From Nitrospinaceae bacterium (GTDB lineage Bacteria > Nitrospinota > Nitrospinia > Nitrospinales > VA-1), in the NCBI GenBank assembly GCA_029261455.1, contig JAJDBH010000020.1, positions 1 through 46,614 of the forward strand: a stretch of 46,614 nt of DNA, written 5' to 3'. This document shows positions 39,798-46,114 of the stretch, in pieces. A program made the position numbers and the translations under genes. Within the stretch, counting starts at the first letter, position 1; the number at the start of each line of letters is the position of its first letter. Under the pieces are notes generated by a model that was not told where the DNA came from, ran no database searches, and worked only from the letters and a program-made list of their open reading frames with translations.

Positions 39798-41498
39798 TTA
39801 ATGAGAGGGCAGAGAAACAGGCTTTACACTTTCCTGATCTGGAAGAAAAACTGTGAATAAAGTTCCCTTACCAAGAGTACTTTTAACATCCATAACCCCT
39901 CCGTTTCGGTTGACAATTTTATAAACGGTTGCCAATCCCAATCCTACACCATCTTTCTTGCTGGAATAAAAGGGGTCATAAATATTATTAATCTGGTCTG
40001 AGGCAATACCGCAACCCTCATCTTGAAACTCAATAACCATGCCACTATGATCAGCTTGAAACTCTCCGCTCTGGAAAGAAACAACCTCCCTAAGCGACAA
40101 GGTCAAAGTTCCCTCAGACATCGCCTCCAAAGCATTGATACACAAATTCCACACAACCTGTTTAATTTGTTCCTCATCACCATTTATAGTCAAATGATCT
40201 GTCGTTCTCTTAAAAACTATACTTTTTTTAGAACTCAGATCTTCTTTATTTTTTAACAGGGTGATTACATCTTGAATAAGTTGAGTTAAATCTATAATTA
40301 TATTATCGTTCTTTTTTGGTTGCGTATAGTTGAGAAAATCAGAAAGAATAGTATTCAGACGATCCGTTTCCTTCATAACTATTTCCATGAGTTTTTTATA
40401 GGAGTCTTCAAGCTTAAGACCTCTTGCAAGAACCTGAATAGAACCGCTCAACGAAGTCAACGGATTTCTTATTTCGTGGGCAAGCCCCGCCGAAAACCTA
40501 CCCACTGCTGCTAACTGCTCTGTCCTCAAAACTTTTTCCTGCATCTCTTTGACTTCGGTAAGGTCTTCAAATACAAGAATGTATCCCGGAACATTAAGGT
40601 CAGCAAGATGACTGATTTTAATCCGGATAAAAATTATCCTTCCGTCTTTTCTTTGATATTCCCCTTCAATTTGCTTTGGAAGATCAAGTATTCTAACTCC
40701 AGAAAATAGGTTTTTCAATTCAACTAAAGGTATCAGTCGCCCTATGGGGTTCTCCAGGCTCTCTTCAATAGAATAACCTGTCAAAGCTATCGCCGCCGGA
40801 TTGATCGATGTGATCTTTCCTTCCGGGTTAATGGTGATCAACCCGTTTCCCATGTTCTGTACAATATTCCGGTTAAAAGCTCTTTGCTCTTCCAGATTGA
40901 TGCTTGCTCTCACCAGTTCTTCTTTAACCATTCGCAGTCGATGCGAGAGAAAACTGCTGAGGTACGCCACCGTATAATAGGAGACAATATTTAAAAAAAT
41001 CACATAAAAAACATAACCGCTTGCAAAAGATACTTTCGATTCTGGAAATAAATAAACCGGAGTGATGATCTCAAAATACTCCAGATCCACCAGCACACCA
41101 TAAATGATAATGGCACCTGATGCAGCTAGATAGGCCGCGGCCCTGGGTAGGGTTACGCTAGATGCAATAATTACAAATAAGAAAAGGAAGGAAATGGGGC
41201 TATCAATACCCCCTGTGGTGAAGAGAATACCTCCTACCAGAAGCAAATCTCCCGCGACTTGAAGCGAAGCATTTTCCGTCAGGGTCAAAAATCTAAAAAG
41301 AACCGCGTAAACGAGGGACATGAAAAAGCCTATCCCGATGACCATGCAGAGAGGCTTAATAGGCGCGGTGATTCCCAAACGCTCTTGAAAGACAAGCAGG
41401 AGAACCACAAATCCAGTCAAAAATAAAACCCTTAAGAGCATTATTCTTCTGACTCGTTGCTCTAACTCCTGATCCTGATTATGAGTTCCACGTGTCAT
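39798..41498 (-). CDS. PilS-like sensor histidine kinase
   Basis: The 566-residue protein has an N-terminal membrane region of about six segments (residues about 15-175), including the PilS-type stretch GGIDSPISFLFLFVIIASS. A coiled coil, a PAS domain (NIVQNMGNGLITINPEGKIT), HisKA (phospho-acceptor in GLAHEIRNPLTSLSG) and HATPase_c (DEGCGIASDQ, GVGLGLATVYKIV) follow. PilS phosphorylates PilR to switch on sigma-54-dependent pilin genes. No regulator gene follows here, so it may act on the PilR-like protein at 28916-30328. The start is ATG 41498; the frame reads on to 41630, but that part overlaps pilC and is not PilS-like. Confidence 0.88.
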   Translation of the reverse strand: MTRGTHNQDQELEQRVRRIMLLRVLFLTGFVVLLLVFQERLGITAPIKPLCMVIGIGFFMSLVYAVLFRFLTLTENASLQVAGDLLLVGGILFTTGGIDSPISFLFLFVIIASSVTLPRAAAYLAASGAIIIYGVLVDLEYFEIITPVYLFPESKVSFASGYVFYVIFLNIVSYYTVAYLSSFLSHRLRMVKEELVRASINLEEQRAFNRNIVQNMGNGLITINPEGKITSINPAAIALTGYSIEESLENPIGRLIPLVELKNLFSGVRILDLPKQIEGEYQRKDGRIIFIRIKISHLADLNVPGYILVFEDLTEVKEMQEKVLRTEQLAAVGRFSAGLAHEIRNPLTSLSGSIQVLARGLKLEDSYKKLMEIVMKETDRLNTILSDFLNYTQPKKNDNIIIDLTQLIQDVITLLKNKEDLSSKKSIVFKRTTDHLTINGDEEQIKQVVWNLCINALEAMSEGTLTLSLREVVSFQSGEFQADHSGMVIEFQDEGCGIASDQINNIYDPFYSSKKDGVGLGLATVYKIVNRNGGVMDVKSTLGKGTLFTVFLPDQESVKPVSLPSH

Positions 41499-41535
41499 AG
41501 CACGGTCGAGTCCGCAAAAAAAATTTGCCTCTCGC

Positions 41536-42735
41536 CTAAATAGCTTCTCCCATTTTAAATATAGGCAAGTACATGGCAACAACAATGAATCCAACAATAA
41601 TTCCCAGGAAGACCATGAGCATAGGTTCAAGCAAGGCCGTCAAACCCTCAACAGCGGCATCTACTTCCTCATCATAAAAATCTGCGATTTTAGCCAGCAT
41701 TTTATCGAGAGAGCCCGAGGCCTCTCCAACATCAATCATTTGAATAACCATAGGAGGAAAAACATCTTCCCGTGAAAGAGGGGCCGCGATAGTTTCACCT
41801 TCCTTGATGGCCTCAATAGTTTTGAACACGGCTATTTCCACTATTTTATTTCCCGAAGTGCGCGCACAAATATCCAAACCTTCGATCAAAGGTACTCCGC
41901 TTGAAATAAGGGTTCCCAGAGTCCGCGTGAACTTTGCTACCGAAACCTTACGAATTAACATTCCAAATACTGGGAGTTTTAAAGCAATTCTGTCTATTTC
42001 AATATTTCCCCGCTCGGTGGCATAAACTTTTTTGAAAACAAAGAAAAATGTGACTGCTCCGCCTATCATAACCCACCATTGGTTTTGGAAAAAACTACTG
42101 ACGTTCATGACGATTCGAGTTGGTCCCGGTAGTTCCGCACCTCCCCCCTCAAACATGGCGGCAAACGCCGGGATAACAAAGATCATTAAAAACGCCACAA
42201 CAACAAAAGCCACGCTGATAATGGCTCCAGGATAAACCATTGCGGCTTTTACTTTTTTCTTCAGTGCTTCTGCTTTTTCAATATACGCAGCCAGGCGCCT
42301 TAGAATGATGTCCAGGATGCCGCCCACCTCTCCGGCTTCGACCAGGTTGCAATAAAGAGAGTCCCAAATCTTTGGAAATTTTTTCAGAGACTCCGACAAA
42401 TTATTCCCAACCTCAATATTCCCCTTTACCCTTAAAATAGTTTCCCCAAAGGTTGGGTTATCAGACTGTTTTCCAAGAATATCTAAGCATTGAACCAGTG
42501 GTAGCCCAGCATCGACCATGGTGGAAAACTGCCGGGTAAAAATGACCACATCGCGGGTGGTAATTTTATGGACCTTGGGACCAAATAAAGCACTTCCCCC
42601 ACCTTTTTTCTTGACGGTAGTTACACGAATGTTCTGTTGTTTCAGTTTTGAGATCGCAGATTTTTCATCTTCCGCTTCCACTTCCCCAAACTTCATTTTT
42701 CCCCGAACCCGTGATTTGTAGGTAAAAGTAGGCAT
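41536..42735 (-). CDS. pilC: PilC/GspF-family inner-membrane platform protein (paralogue 2)
   Basis: The 399-residue protein has two T2SSF domains with the repeated signature FTRQFSTMVDAGLPLVQCLD / NLVEAGEVGGILDIILRRLA and FTRTLGTLISSGVPLIEGLD / QMIDVGEASGSLDKMLAKIA. The opening (MPTFTYKSRVRGKMKFGEVE) and the C-terminal MLMVFLGIIVGFIVVAMYLP membrane segment are typical of type IV pilus PilC. Both PilT-family ATPases lie upstream on the same strand. It lies 12 bases after the cNMP-binding gene. It is clearly diverged from the PilC paralogue at 27599-28825. Confidence 0.95.
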   Translation of the reverse strand: MPTFTYKSRVRGKMKFGEVEAEDEKSAISKLKQQNIRVTTVKKKGGGSALFGPKVHKITTRDVVIFTRQFSTMVDAGLPLVQCLDILGKQSDNPTFGETILRVKGNIEVGNNLSESLKKFPKIWDSLYCNLVEAGEVGGILDIILRRLAAYIEKAEALKKKVKAAMVYPGAIISVAFVVVAFLMIFVIPAFAAMFEGGGAELPGPTRIVMNVSSFFQNQWWVMIGGAVTFFFVFKKVYATERGNIEIDRIALKLPVFGMLIRKVSVAKFTRTLGTLISSGVPLIEGLDICARTSGNKIVEIAVFKTIEAIKEGETIAAPLSREDVFPPMVIQMIDVGEASGSLDKMLAKIADFYDEEVDAAVEGLTALLEPMLMVFLGIIVGFIVVAMYLPIFKMGEAI

Positions 42736-42747
42736 AAATTATTTGGG

Positions 42748-43173
42748 CTATTCCTGCTGTTTTAAAGTATAAGCATTAATTTTACTTTTTGTGTTTTCAA
42801 GTTCCAGTCCAATACGTGTCAATAAATGTGTTGTATTCCTCAGGCGCCCCACCAATGCCAGGATAATAGGCTTCATACCATCTGGAAGTTCACCCATTGC
42901 TGTATCAAAAAGTTCCTTGCTAATCACACCAACGGTCACATCTCCAACGGCTGAAACATTGGCACTCCGTACTGTTTCTGCAATCAAACCCATCTCTCCG
43001 AAAACCTCACCCTCCTTGAGAGTTCCTATTGTGACGACTTTTTTATCTAACTTCTGTGAGATGCGAACCTTGCCCTTGATAACCACATAGGCATTGTTAC
43101 TCATAATCCCTTCTGTGACGATGATATCGCCATCACCATAGTGCTGGTGAATGGGCGTGTCTTGTAGTTTCAT
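42748..43173 (-). CDS. Cyclic-nucleotide-binding-domain protein
   Basis: The 141-residue protein is a single CRP-type cNMP-binding beta-barrel: DGDIIVTEGIMSNNAYVVIK and the phosphate-binding cassette FGEMGLIAETVRSANVSA, followed by a helix. There is no helix-turn-helix, so it is not a transcription factor. It may sense cAMP or c-di-GMP, or simply serve as a protein-interaction barrel. Its ATG overlaps the stop of the zinc-ribbon gene by four bases (ATGA), so the pair is translationally coupled, and pilC follows after 12 bases. The context suggests control of pilus assembly or retraction. I know of no standard pil gene of this description. Confidence 0.88.
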   Translation of the reverse strand: MKLQDTPIHQHYGDGDIIVTEGIMSNNAYVVIKGKVRISQKLDKKVVTIGTLKEGEVFGEMGLIAETVRSANVSAVGDVTVGVISKELFDTAMGELPDGMKPIILALVGRLRNTTHLLTRIGLELENTKSKINAYTLKQQE

Positions 43174-43844
43174 GCTTTTCCCATAGAGTGAAGAGTTTCT
43201 TTGAATACCTTATAGAAAATTTCATTTTCAGAGATCGATTTCTTTAAAACATCCCCTAGTTTATTCATATCCTTTTCGTTGATCACAACATTAACGCTTT
43301 TCTGGAAGGCCTGCATATTATTTAGAGTTTTAAAGTTTGTCCCCAATAACGCCAAAAAAATATTCCTACGCGTCACCATGGGCAGCTCGATCAAGGTTTG
43401 ATAAACAGGATTATTATCGAGCCCCTTGTCGCCGTAGTTTTCATTCAAGGCAACAAAATGGAAGTGGGTGAATTTCATTTTATGCACCGCGTGTTCCGGT
43501 GATTTGGCGTATTGAATTTTAAAGTCTCTACTTTCCAACGCCTCGGTCCAAATGGACTTATTTTTTTCGTCCAACACCAAAGCTAACTGATCACCTTCTT
43601 CGTAAATAACCAGTTCATCATCATCTTCAAAATCTTCATGCTCCACAACCATACTCGTAGCGTCTAACGCCTTTTCAGGTTCGGGTGCAGCAGAAGGTGC
43701 AGGTGGTTCGTGGCTTTTCAAGTGCTGATCTACTTTGATTTTATTTTTGCATCCGGGACAGGTGATGGAGAAGGCCTGGTCTTTAGGCAGTTTCTCATCC
43801 GGAATATTCATGGACCGCTGACATGCATTACACTCTACTTGCAT
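43170..43844 (-). CDS. Zinc-ribbon protein with a receiver-like domain lacking the phospho-acceptor
   Basis: The N-terminus is an MJ0042-type zinc ribbon (CNACQRSMNIP...CPGCKNKIKV; Cys5, Cys8, Cys29 and Cys32). After a Pro/Ala/Glu-rich linker (about 44-85), the C-terminal 135 residues have the strand-helix order of a response-regulator receiver: LALVLDE (87-93), DFKIQYA (107-113), FHFVALNENYG (128-138), NIFLALLGT (161-169) and VNVVINEKD (184-192). Asn134 sits where the phosphorylated Asp would be, and the conserved Lys after strand 5 is missing. The receiver assignment is inference from the pattern and not a family match. The gene is coupled by ATGA overlap to the cNMP-binding gene and lies 16 bases after the PilU-like ATPase gene. 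Confidence 0.7.
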   Translation of the reverse strand: MQVECNACQRSMNIPDEKLPKDQAFSITCPGCKNKIKVDQHLKSHEPPAPSAAPEPEKALDATSMVVEHEDFEDDDELVIYEEGDQLALVLDEKNKSIWTEALESRDFKIQYAKSPEHAVHKMKFTHFHFVALNENYGDKGLDNNPVYQTLIELPMVTRRNIFLALLGTNFKTLNNMQAFQKSVNVVINEKDMNKLGDVLKKSISENEIFYKVFKETLHSMGKA

Positions 43845-43860: not shown

Positions 43861-45033
43861 TCATTTTTGTACTTCAGCCCCGTATTCATCGTCCATATTA
43901 AGCCCTTCAATATCCGTGGTCTTTTCACCTTTAGCCGATTTGAGCGTGTCGATGCCCCGGCCAACCACAGCCTTTCGGGAAGCATATGCCATAGCGGTTT
44001 CCTCTGTGATAAGACCATCTTCATACAATTTCATTATATGCTGATCGAAAGTCCACATGCCGTAGGCATCACCATTGGTAATGATTTCATAATAAGTTTT
44101 GCCCTCGGATTCACCATTGATGATCGTGTCCTTTACCCGCATAGTGGAAGACATGATCTCAAGTAAAGCTACGCGGCCCCCGCCCACCTTGGGAAGCAAG
44201 CGTTGGCAAATAATCCAGCGAACAGTGTCTGCTAAACGAATGCGTATTTGTTGTTCCTCTTCTTGAGAAAACATGCCCACAATACGGTTGATGGTTTGCC
44301 CTGCATCGACCGTATGTAGGGTACTCATAACCAAATGGCCAGTTTCTGCTGCACTAAGTCCGATCTCTACCGTTTCCCGATCACGCATTTCTCCAACCAG
44401 AATAACCTTGGGTGCCTGACGTAAGGCGGCTCGAAGCCCACTCGAAAATGCGTCATAATCGCTTCCCAATTCCCTCTGATTAAAGGTAGCTTTCTTATGA
44501 GGATGCACAAACTCCACAGGATCTTCCAAAGTGATAATGTGCATGGATTTTTCCTCATTCATCTTATTCAACAAAGCCGCAAGCGTGGTAGATTTTCCGC
44601 TTCCTGTCGCCCCTGTAACCAGAATCAGTCCATTTTTTTCTTCCGCAGCTTTGGCAAACTGGCCTGGAAGTTTTAAGTCTTCAATGGATGGAATTCGCGT
44701 TTCCAGTTTTCTCAGTACAATGGAATAGTTTCCGCGCTGTGAAAATATATTGACTCGAAAACGGGCTTTGCCCACCAGAAAATAGGAACAATCGCAGGAC
44801 CCTTGTTGGATTAAAATTTCTGTTAAACGCCTATCTGCATTGATGATGTTTAAAGCAAATATTTCCGCTTGGAATGGCGTGAGCTCTTCAATAGGAGGGT
44901 CTATGGGAACCGCCGTCAATTGCCCTGAGGTTTCTACCTGACAAGCTTTGCCCACCGTTATATTGAGGTCAGAAATATTTCCGAACGCTTCCAGCATGGT
45001 GGTTAAAATATGATCGACTTCCGCTTTTCTCAT
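43861..45033 (-). CDS. PilT-family retraction ATPase, PilU-like (second copy)
   Basis: The 390-residue cytoplasmic ATPase has Walker A GATGSGKST, the Asp box ITLEDPVEFVHPHKKATFNQ, Walker B APKVILVGEMRDRETVE and the His box LVMSTLHTVDAGQTINR. Compared with the PilT upstream it is longer and has an extra acidic C-terminal tail (residues about 360-390, GEKTTDIEGLNMDDEYG), a feature of PilU-type accessory motors. It begins seven bases after the pilT stop, so the two are one operon. It would help PilT to retract the type IV pilus for twitching motility. Confidence 0.9.
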   Translation of the reverse strand: MRKAEVDHILTTMLEAFGNISDLNITVGKACQVETSGQLTAVPIDPPIEELTPFQAEIFALNIINADRRLTEILIQQGSCDCSYFLVGKARFRVNIFSQRGNYSIVLRKLETRIPSIEDLKLPGQFAKAAEEKNGLILVTGATGSGKSTTLAALLNKMNEEKSMHIITLEDPVEFVHPHKKATFNQRELGSDYDAFSSGLRAALRQAPKVILVGEMRDRETVEIGLSAAETGHLVMSTLHTVDAGQTINRIVGMFSQEEEQQIRIRLADTVRWIICQRLLPKVGGGRVALLEIMSSTMRVKDTIINGESEGKTYYEIITNGDAYGMWTFDQHIMKLYEDGLITEETAMAYASRKAVVGRGIDTLKSAKGEKTTDIEGLNMDDEYGAEVQK

Positions 45034-45040
45034 AGGTTCC

Positions 45041-46114
45041 TCATAAAAATTCTGGAGGTGTACTTAAGAACTGAACAAACCGCTCTTTAACAATCGCCTT
45101 ATCGTAAGCATCTTCGGGACTAATTTTTTTCTCTTCCAGAGCGATAAGAATGGCATCATCTAAAGATTGCATGCCATATTTTTTCCCCGTTTGGATTGCT
45201 GAAGGAATTTGAAAAGTCTTGCCTTCTCGAATCAGGTTGGAAACCGCAGGAGTCACTACCAGAATTTCCAGAACTGCCATCCTGCCTTTTTTATCGATAC
45301 GTTTGAACAAGTTCTGAGCTATTACCCCTTTAAGAGATTCAGAAAGGGTGGTACGAATTTGCGACTGCTGATGCGCCGGAAAAACATCGATGACCCGGTC
45401 AATAGTTTTTGCTGCACTTTGGGTATGAAGTGTGCCAAAAACTAAATGGCCTGTAGAAGCAGCTTCCAAAGCCAGTTCAATAGTTTCTAGATCCCGCATT
45501 TCACCAACGAGGATGATATCCGGGTCTTCTCGTAAGGCTCCGCGCAGGGCGGATTTGAACCCCTTGGTATGCACTCCTATTTCCCGATGATTCACAATAC
45601 AACTTTGACTTTTATGAACAAATTCAACCGGGTCTTCAACAGTAATGATATGACTTTTCTTGTTCCTGTTAACGTAGTCCATCATCGCAGCAAGTGTTGT
45701 GGACTTTCCACTTCCCGTAGGTCCAGTAACCAGAACCATTCCCTTATGCAGCATGGAAAGCTTGGTGATGACTTTTGGAAGCCCCAGTTGTTCAGAGGTC
45801 AGAATTGTGCTTGGAATTTCCCTGAAAACCGCTCCCACACCCCATTTCTGCTGAAAATAATTCGCCCGATAACGAGCCAGGTTGGGAATTTCATAAGCAA
45901 AATCTACATCCCCGGTTTCTTCAAATACCTTGATTTTGTTTTCTGGAGCAATTTCATACAACATGGCTTTCAGTTCATCATTATCCAGTGCTTTGTATTT
46001 GATTCGCTCCATGTCCCCGTGAACCCTAAGTATGGGTTGCGACCCCGAAACAAGGTGCAGGTCTGAAGCGCCCTGCTCATTCATCAGCTTAAAGAAGGCA
46101 TCAATTTTAGCCAC
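45041..46114 (-). CDS. pilT: Type IV pilus retraction ATPase PilT
   Basis: The 357-residue protein has the PilT motifs in order: ASDLHLVSGSQPILRVHGDM (N-terminal domain), Walker A GPTGSGKST, the Asp box ITVEDPVEFVHKSQSCIVNH, Walker B DPDIILVGEMRDLETIELAL, the His box LVFGTLHTQSAAKTIDR and, near position 290, VVTPAVSNLIREGKTFQIPS, the C-terminal AIRNLIRE-type region that is important for retraction. It is the first complete gene of the minus-strand pil block and starts three bases after the RodZ-like gene's stop. Confidence 0.95.
   Translation of the reverse strand: MAKIDAFFKLMNEQGASDLHLVSGSQPILRVHGDMERIKYKALDNDELKAMLYEIAPENKIKVFEETGDVDFAYEIPNLARYRANYFQQKWGVGAVFREIPSTILTSEQLGLPKVITKLSMLHKGMVLVTGPTGSGKSTTLAAMMDYVNRNKKSHIITVEDPVEFVHKSQSCIVNHREIGVHTKGFKSALRGALREDPDIILVGEMRDLETIELALEAASTGHLVFGTLHTQSAAKTIDRVIDVFPAHQQSQIRTTLSESLKGVIAQNLFKRIDKKGRMAVLEILVVTPAVSNLIREGKTFQIPSAIQTGKKYGMQSLDDAILIALEEKKISPEDAYDKAIVKERFVQFLSTPPEFL

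Follow-up and report, generated by a model that had tools for sequence, protein, structure and literature searches.

In the 46,614-nucleotide stretch of contig JAJDBH010000020.1 of a Nitrospinaceae bacterium (assembly GCA_029261455.1), hereafter the window, two overlapping genes unlike standard pil genes lie between a PilU-like ATPase and PilC, and the question raised by this locus is what a zinc-ribbon/receiver-like protein and a stand-alone cyclic mononucleotide (cNMP)-binding protein do in a type IV pilus cluster. The former, here called the adaptor, is the core of the arrangement and is tied to a PilU-like ATPase across several phyla, while the latter is an optional addition. The larger finding is a PilU-linked family of zinc-ribbon/receiver proteins with intact and degenerate members, in which the window pair is the cyclic-nucleotide-equipped form; the linkage between PilU and the adaptor points to an undescribed control of pilus retraction. 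The pair is made up as follows:

43170-43844, minus strand: adaptor of 224 residues, with a zinc ribbon (1-40), an acidic linker (41-85), a receiver-like domain (86-205) and an extended last helix to residue 222
43725-43844, minus strand: zinc ribbon, residues 1-40, with Cys5, Cys8, Cys29 and Cys32 (Pfam Zn_ribbon_4)
43179-43589, minus strand: predicted degenerate receiver and C-terminal helix, residues 86-222, with Asn134 at the phospho-acceptor place and Gly168 at the Ser/Thr place
42748-43173, minus strand: stand-alone CRP-like cNMP-binding domain of 141 residues, with a C-helix and without a helix-turn-helix (HTH) (PF00027, 66.8 bits)
43170-43173, minus strand: 4-bp stop/start overlap of the adaptor and cNMP genes, seen in the sequence

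The gene order was tallied in 99 adaptor loci, comprising 47 from Nitrospinota, 20 from a second phylum, 7 wider matches and 25 from a third phylum. The Nitrospinota survey covered 77 genomes, 47 of them with a full-length adaptor (an automatic tally at 1e-3 reached 50 by adding the contig-edge pieces of G062 and G063 and a weak match of G023 to the receiver part only; 47 is used here); the wider matches include two second-phylum genomes, G138 and G279, and in the third phylum 65/347 genomes match the adaptor profile at 1e-6, the tallied loci being the 25 best-scoring of these 65. A PilU gene is found at most 250 bp upstream of the adaptor and on the same strand in 97/99 loci (Nitrospinota 45/47, second phylum 20/20, wider matches 7/7, third phylum 25/25 among the best of 65); the two exceptions, both in Nitrospinota, are L059, where the contig begins too close to the adaptor, and L062, in which a single gene intervenes. 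PilC lies downstream of the adaptor in 44/47, 20/20, 4/7 and 0/25 loci of the same sets and the cNMP gene adjoins it in 47/47, 11/20, 0/7 and 0/25, the last value of each series again being that of the best 25 of 65. Because adjacency to PilU holds even where PilC is elsewhere, the partner of the adaptor is most likely PilU rather than PilC.

Among the Nitrospinota genomes no complete PilU orthologue without an adaptor was found, the PilU of G070 being cut by the contig end. When the search was widened to 387 genomes, the adaptor profile matched at 1e-8 in 7 outside Nitrospinota, and PilU of at least 67% identity occurs outside Nitrospinota in exactly those 7; at least one divergent case was missed by this profile search, since G158 has an adaptor directly downstream of a PilU relative of 53% identity. 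Of the 24 second-phylum genomes, 22 carry the adaptor, and the cNMP gene accompanies it in one family of 11 and not in the other 11; on a tree obtained by a quick method the presence of this gene needs three changes, two of them forced by starred branches, and gain and loss are indistinguishable. No adaptor relative was detected in the viral contigs scanned, and a tblastn search of plasmids with one relative as query gave no match. The original prediction had taken the two proteins together as one regulator, and conservation of the pair beside pil genes had been set in advance as a check, which it passed: the adjacency in all 47 adaptor-bearing Nitrospinota genomes is more than chance would give and the unit is maintained in this phylum, whereas across several phyla the adaptor is core with PilU and the cNMP protein is optional. 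In G064 two PilU-adaptor segments are present, on contigs C27 and C56, due either to two strains in the bin or to a true duplication.

The remaining genes of the window cluster, all on the minus strand, follow the order PilT, PilU-like ATPase, adaptor, cNMP-binding protein, PilC and PilS-like kinase:

45041-46114, minus strand: PilT (TIGR01420, 465.1 bits)
43861-45033, minus strand: PilU-like ATPase of the PilT/PilU family, constant neighbour of the adaptor gene (TIGR01420, 382.7 bits)
41536-42735, minus strand: PilC (T2SSF), the downstream neighbour in Nitrospinota (PF00482, 222.6 bits)
39798-41630, minus strand: PilS-like sensor kinase, end of the cluster (PF25323 6TM_PilS, HisKA, HATPase_c)

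TIGR01420 matches both ATPases, which share 42% identity, and does not tell PilT from PilU. The placing of two coupled genes between the PilU-like ATPase and PilC proved exact in its coordinates, the coupling consisting in the 4-bp overlap; the same overlap occurs in 16/28 Nitrospinota loci (L001-L029 without L008, where the cNMP frame is broken). The broken cNMP gene of L008 (2160-2584; genome G012, which also holds L038) runs through two reading frames, owing to a sequencing error or to decay of the gene.

The zinc ribbon of the adaptor is of the MJ0042 type, with two CxxC knuckles, and exceeds the Zn_ribbon_4 cut-off narrowly (30.4 bits versus 30.3); the family matches 40/40 Nitrospinota adaptor rows (E<=1), in all of which the four cysteines are invariant. 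Beyond the ribbon, single-protein scans of the window adaptor gave no family match, Response_reg included, at E<=1. The kinship of the second domain was recognised by profiles: the best PDB sequence matches of a 40-row adaptor profile are response regulators (3a0r, E 4e-4, residues 92-138), for which a 30-row profile gave only E 0.011, and Response_reg is found at E<=1 in 13/40 Nitrospinota members, with a best value of 0.0017. In addition, when the profile was compared by hhalign with 38 aligned receiver sequences from same-genome loci plus the window's own receiver, the probability was 95 and the score 47.3 over 51 columns; among the controls, the highest score from 100 shuffles of the columns was 19.75, and reversing the alignment gave 13.2. 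The match spans beta1 to beta3, the second half of the receiver being too diverged to align.

Structure prediction was performed on residues 76-224 from 11 sequences and gave a (beta-alpha)5 fold with a predicted local distance difference test (pLDDT) of 61.8 and a predicted template modelling score of 0.56. In a Foldseek search this trimmed model had 11 matches below 1e-3, namely 10 receivers or response regulators, one of them designed, and one pilus assembly-related protein (4dad); its VIA-align list is likewise occupied by receivers, and the superposition on the PleD receiver has a Z of 15.3 and a root-mean-square deviation (rmsd) of 2.4 over 134 aligned residues. The full-length model is weak (pLDDT 48.5), and its Foldseek list mixes designed P-loop folds and receivers, none below 1e-3. 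The trimmed model is only moderate, yet its receiver fold accords with the sequence evidence, and the assignment of the C-terminal domain to the receiver superfamily (PF00072) is well supported by predicted fold and sequence kinship. The protein had been described beforehand as a zinc ribbon joined to a receiver-like fold without phospho-Asp, and both the profile and model evidence and the presence of Asn134 agree with this; the predicted fold of the 43170 product, a check fixed in advance, is receiver-like.

The state of the phosphorylation site differs among members of the family. In the window adaptor Asn134 occupies the acceptor position and Gly168 the beta4 Ser/Thr position, and the acidic pair Asp92/Glu93 is retained; across the 67 rows of an alignment the residues at the acceptor place are Asn 26, His 19, Thr 10, Ser 6, Asp 4, Glu 1 and Gly 1. 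The acceptor Asp is present in 3/40 Nitrospinota rows, with the beta4 Ser/Thr in 1/40, and in 0/11 of the other cNMP-bearing lineage, that of the second phylum. The third phylum has the acceptor Asp in 22/25 and the beta4 Ser/Thr in 22/25 of its best loci (25 of 65), and 2 of the 7 third-phylum adaptors scanned exceed the Response_reg cut-off of 30.2 over nearly the whole domain (51.5 and 50.2 bits), the other 5 falling below. A pseudo-receiver is defined as a receiver by descent without key phosphotransfer residues (PMC12632262, accessible part). Because relatives elsewhere keep the receiver active site, the Nitrospinota adaptor is, judging from its sequence, a pseudo-receiver that descended from a receiver and lost the phosphorylation site; the earlier description of a receiver without phospho-Asp is thus correct for Nitrospinota and is refined to a loss. 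A replacement of the beta5 Lys by Asn189 was also considered, and its placement was not upheld by the profile alignment; the position of the conserved receiver Lys is uncertain, the alignment giving Glu190, with Lys191 adjoining. Two further variants of the adaptor were observed: versions consisting of the receiver only, without zinc ribbon, lie directly behind PilU in L119 (5590-6078), L120 (5165-5650) and L177 (1462-2001), and a 15-residue insertion after the first receiver-domain helix is common to the adaptors of L024 and L026.

The pseudo-receiver could act on something other than the motor. In Nitrospinota the cluster is closed by the PilS-like gene, and sensor-kinase binding is named as a possible pseudo-receiver mechanism in the accessible part of PMC12632262; the adaptor might target the adjacent kinase, PilS, or the regulator of that kinase, the pair tuning pilin transcription. 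This is very unlikely, given that the third-phylum loci (best 25 of 65) have the adaptor behind PilU and no PilC within 700 bp, so that the constant neighbour is the ATPase and not the kinase.

A receiver-type domain that lacks the acceptor Asp and controls type IV pili is likewise found in FrzS of Myxococcus xanthus, whose alpha3-beta4-alpha4 surface is reported to bind SgmX and to activate the pili (PMC12632262), and the best-conserved face of the adaptor corresponds to the same region as this contact. In particular, conservation within the receiver domain amounts to 2.93 bits in the alpha3-beta4 turn, 2.90 in beta5 and 2.85 in alpha4, versus 2.22 in beta1 and 1.56 in alpha1, and in 23 adaptor rows aligned across the phyla three residues never vary, namely Arg159, Arg160 and Ala179. 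In contrast to the adaptor, neither a zinc ribbon nor a paired cNMP sensor is mentioned for FrzS in the accessible passages on it, and the long coiled coil of the FrzS family would find no room in the adaptor, which ends at the last receiver helix, as judged from length and not from a coiled-coil prediction. ZitP of Caulobacter, which pilus biogenesis and polar assembly require, resembles the adaptor in that its cytoplasmic part is a zinc ribbon of a broadly similar type; unlike the adaptor, it spans the membrane, has a periplasmic DUF3426 and works in the cpa pilus system, and its description makes no mention of a receiver domain (PMC5182063, accessible part).

A polar scaffold, in which the ribbon attaches to an organiser protein of the pole and so positions both PilU and the pilus machine there while the cNMP protein sets the timing, would imply control by location and not through the ATPase cycle. 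In the low-confidence model the ribbon can be superposed on the zinc finger of ZitP (2nb9, rmsd 1.7, 40 columns), and FrzS, a pseudo-receiver protein, acts through polar recruitment (PMC11580455). However, the ribbon is dispensable in L119, L120 and L177, where the receivers behind PilU are without it, and the zinc ribbon family is very wide, so that fold likeness gives no function; the scaffold is considered rather unlikely, albeit the strongest of the competing explanations.

The second protein of the pair contains PF00027 as the only domain found in a scan at E<=1, with neither HTH nor effector domain, and its description as a cNMP-binding domain without an effector is therefore accurate. 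Among solved structures its profile is closest to a repeat-rich protein of Toxoplasma and to domains of cGMP- and cAMP-dependent kinases, followed by the Bdellovibrio EAL enzyme Bd1971 and CRP. It is collinear with residues 20-136 of E. coli CRP, barrel and C-helix included, but it has no DNA-binding domain and is coupled to a pilus adaptor gene; with 141 residues and without the C-terminal HTH it is not a CRP/FNR transcription factor. The CRP residues G71, E72, R82, S83, T127 and S128, which contact cAMP, have their equivalents in Gly59, Glu60, Arg69, Ser70, Thr114 and Thr115, the predicted contacts of the window protein. Over 37 Nitrospinota rows these positions contain G 37, E 37, R 37, S 31/T 6, T 37 and T 30/S 7, and G, E and R are present in 11/11 cNMP loci of the second phylum. 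A class III cyclase (PF00211) is encoded in 42/47 adaptor-bearing Nitrospinota genomes, with two copies in the window's own genome.

The reading to which preference is given, tentatively and with somewhat less than even confidence, is that the adaptor is a pseudo-receiver docked on PilU, that its phosphate input has disappeared, and that it takes its signal here from a cyclic-nucleotide sensor by which retraction is controlled. The receiver-type domain would dock on PilU, or on PilT/PilU, via the conserved alpha3-beta4-alpha4-beta5 face, and the zinc ribbon would tie the adaptor to the pilus base or to a pole protein; action on PilU is proposed because PilU is the only gene whose place beside the adaptor persists across phyla, and because the most strongly conserved face lies where FrzS is reported to bind its partner. 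In distant relatives the receiver domain could be phosphorylated, while in Nitrospinota, the phosphate input having been lost, the translationally coupled CRP-like sensor may supply the signal by binding or releasing the adaptor. The sensor would form homodimers in which cAMP (or cGMP) is bound across the C-helices, and pilus retraction would come under second-messenger control. The computations themselves establish the domains, the missing acceptor Asp, the residues at the cNMP contacts, the close linkage to PilU and the optional character of the cNMP gene; complex formation, the ligand, the dimer and the direction of the effect on pili are what we infer. The original prediction of a regulator of pilus extension or retraction retains a sensible role, with retraction as the likelier target, since the tie is to PilU and not to PilC.

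Second-messenger control is suggested by the conserved cNMP-contact residues and by one relative at the same spot: the gene between PilU and the adaptor in L062 (2865-3380, plus strand) encodes 172 residues with a zinc-ribbon-like N-terminus and a PilZ domain (PF07238, 1.3e-11), which fits a second-messenger input at the PilU-adaptor spot. In PilZ- and MshE-type systems cyclic di-GMP is likewise an input into the pilus motor ATPase, and L062 holds the PilZ counterpart, whereas the window has a mononucleotide-type cNMP domain and not a PilZ domain. The data hint that the nucleotide sensor may have replaced phosphorylation as the input.

Several observations weigh against this reading. The T127 position is kept in 8/11 second-phylum loci, and at the S83 position seven of these have Ser and four have Tyr. 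No class III cyclase is found at E<=1e-5 in G002, G006, G020, G022 and G068, five of the 47 genomes and three of them 92-96% complete, so that cAMP from such a cyclase is not the signal everywhere. In the second phylum 11 loci are without both the acceptor Asp and the cNMP neighbour, so that a simple input swap does not explain all lineages, and conversely 3 Nitrospinota rows have the acceptor Asp together with the cNMP gene. Furthermore, G098 has a PilU relative of 53% identity with no adaptor found, and the structure models are of low to moderate confidence. The weaker ligand residues and the five cyclase-negative genomes, as well as the stand-alone module with its 4-bp coupling, would also suit a cNMP-like protein that binds no nucleotide and is a structural dimer joining two adaptors, the pair being an assembly factor for PilU hexamers. 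However, in the phosphate-binding cassette neither Glu nor Arg varies in any of the 48 rows (37 + 11), a constancy unneeded for a purely structural barrel, and this explanation is considered improbable.

A more far-reaching form of the preferred reading is considered rather unlikely: PilU would have a dedicated and widely conserved zinc-ribbon/receiver partner that receives a phosphate signal in some phyla, and in Nitrospinota and one second-phylum family the phosphate site of this partner would have decayed and a CRP sensor half lacking the DNA-binding domain would have joined it, cAMP or cGMP setting retraction directly, without transcription. Within one family both states occur next to an ATPase of the same kind, a receiver whose site is intact and a pseudo-receiver with a separate nucleotide sensor, and the question becomes testable by comparing them. 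The literature search found no paper linking MJ0042 with the type IV pilus and none on the PilU-adaptor-cNMP arrangement among the top-ranked results, most subscription journals lying outside the search.

The source assembly comprises 3.51 Mb and is 84.5% complete, with the locus on contig C20, and relatives of 59-88% protein identity in named records belong to Nitrospina and other Nitrospinota assemblies. In this genome 22 stretches match the cNMP profile at E<=1e-3, the window gene with 1e-64 and the next with 4e-26. At G000:C167:4979-6576 and C141:7026-8626, cNMP-binding stretches in short open reading frames of 132-157 residues stand side by side in groups of three and four; such tandem single-domain arrays look unusual.
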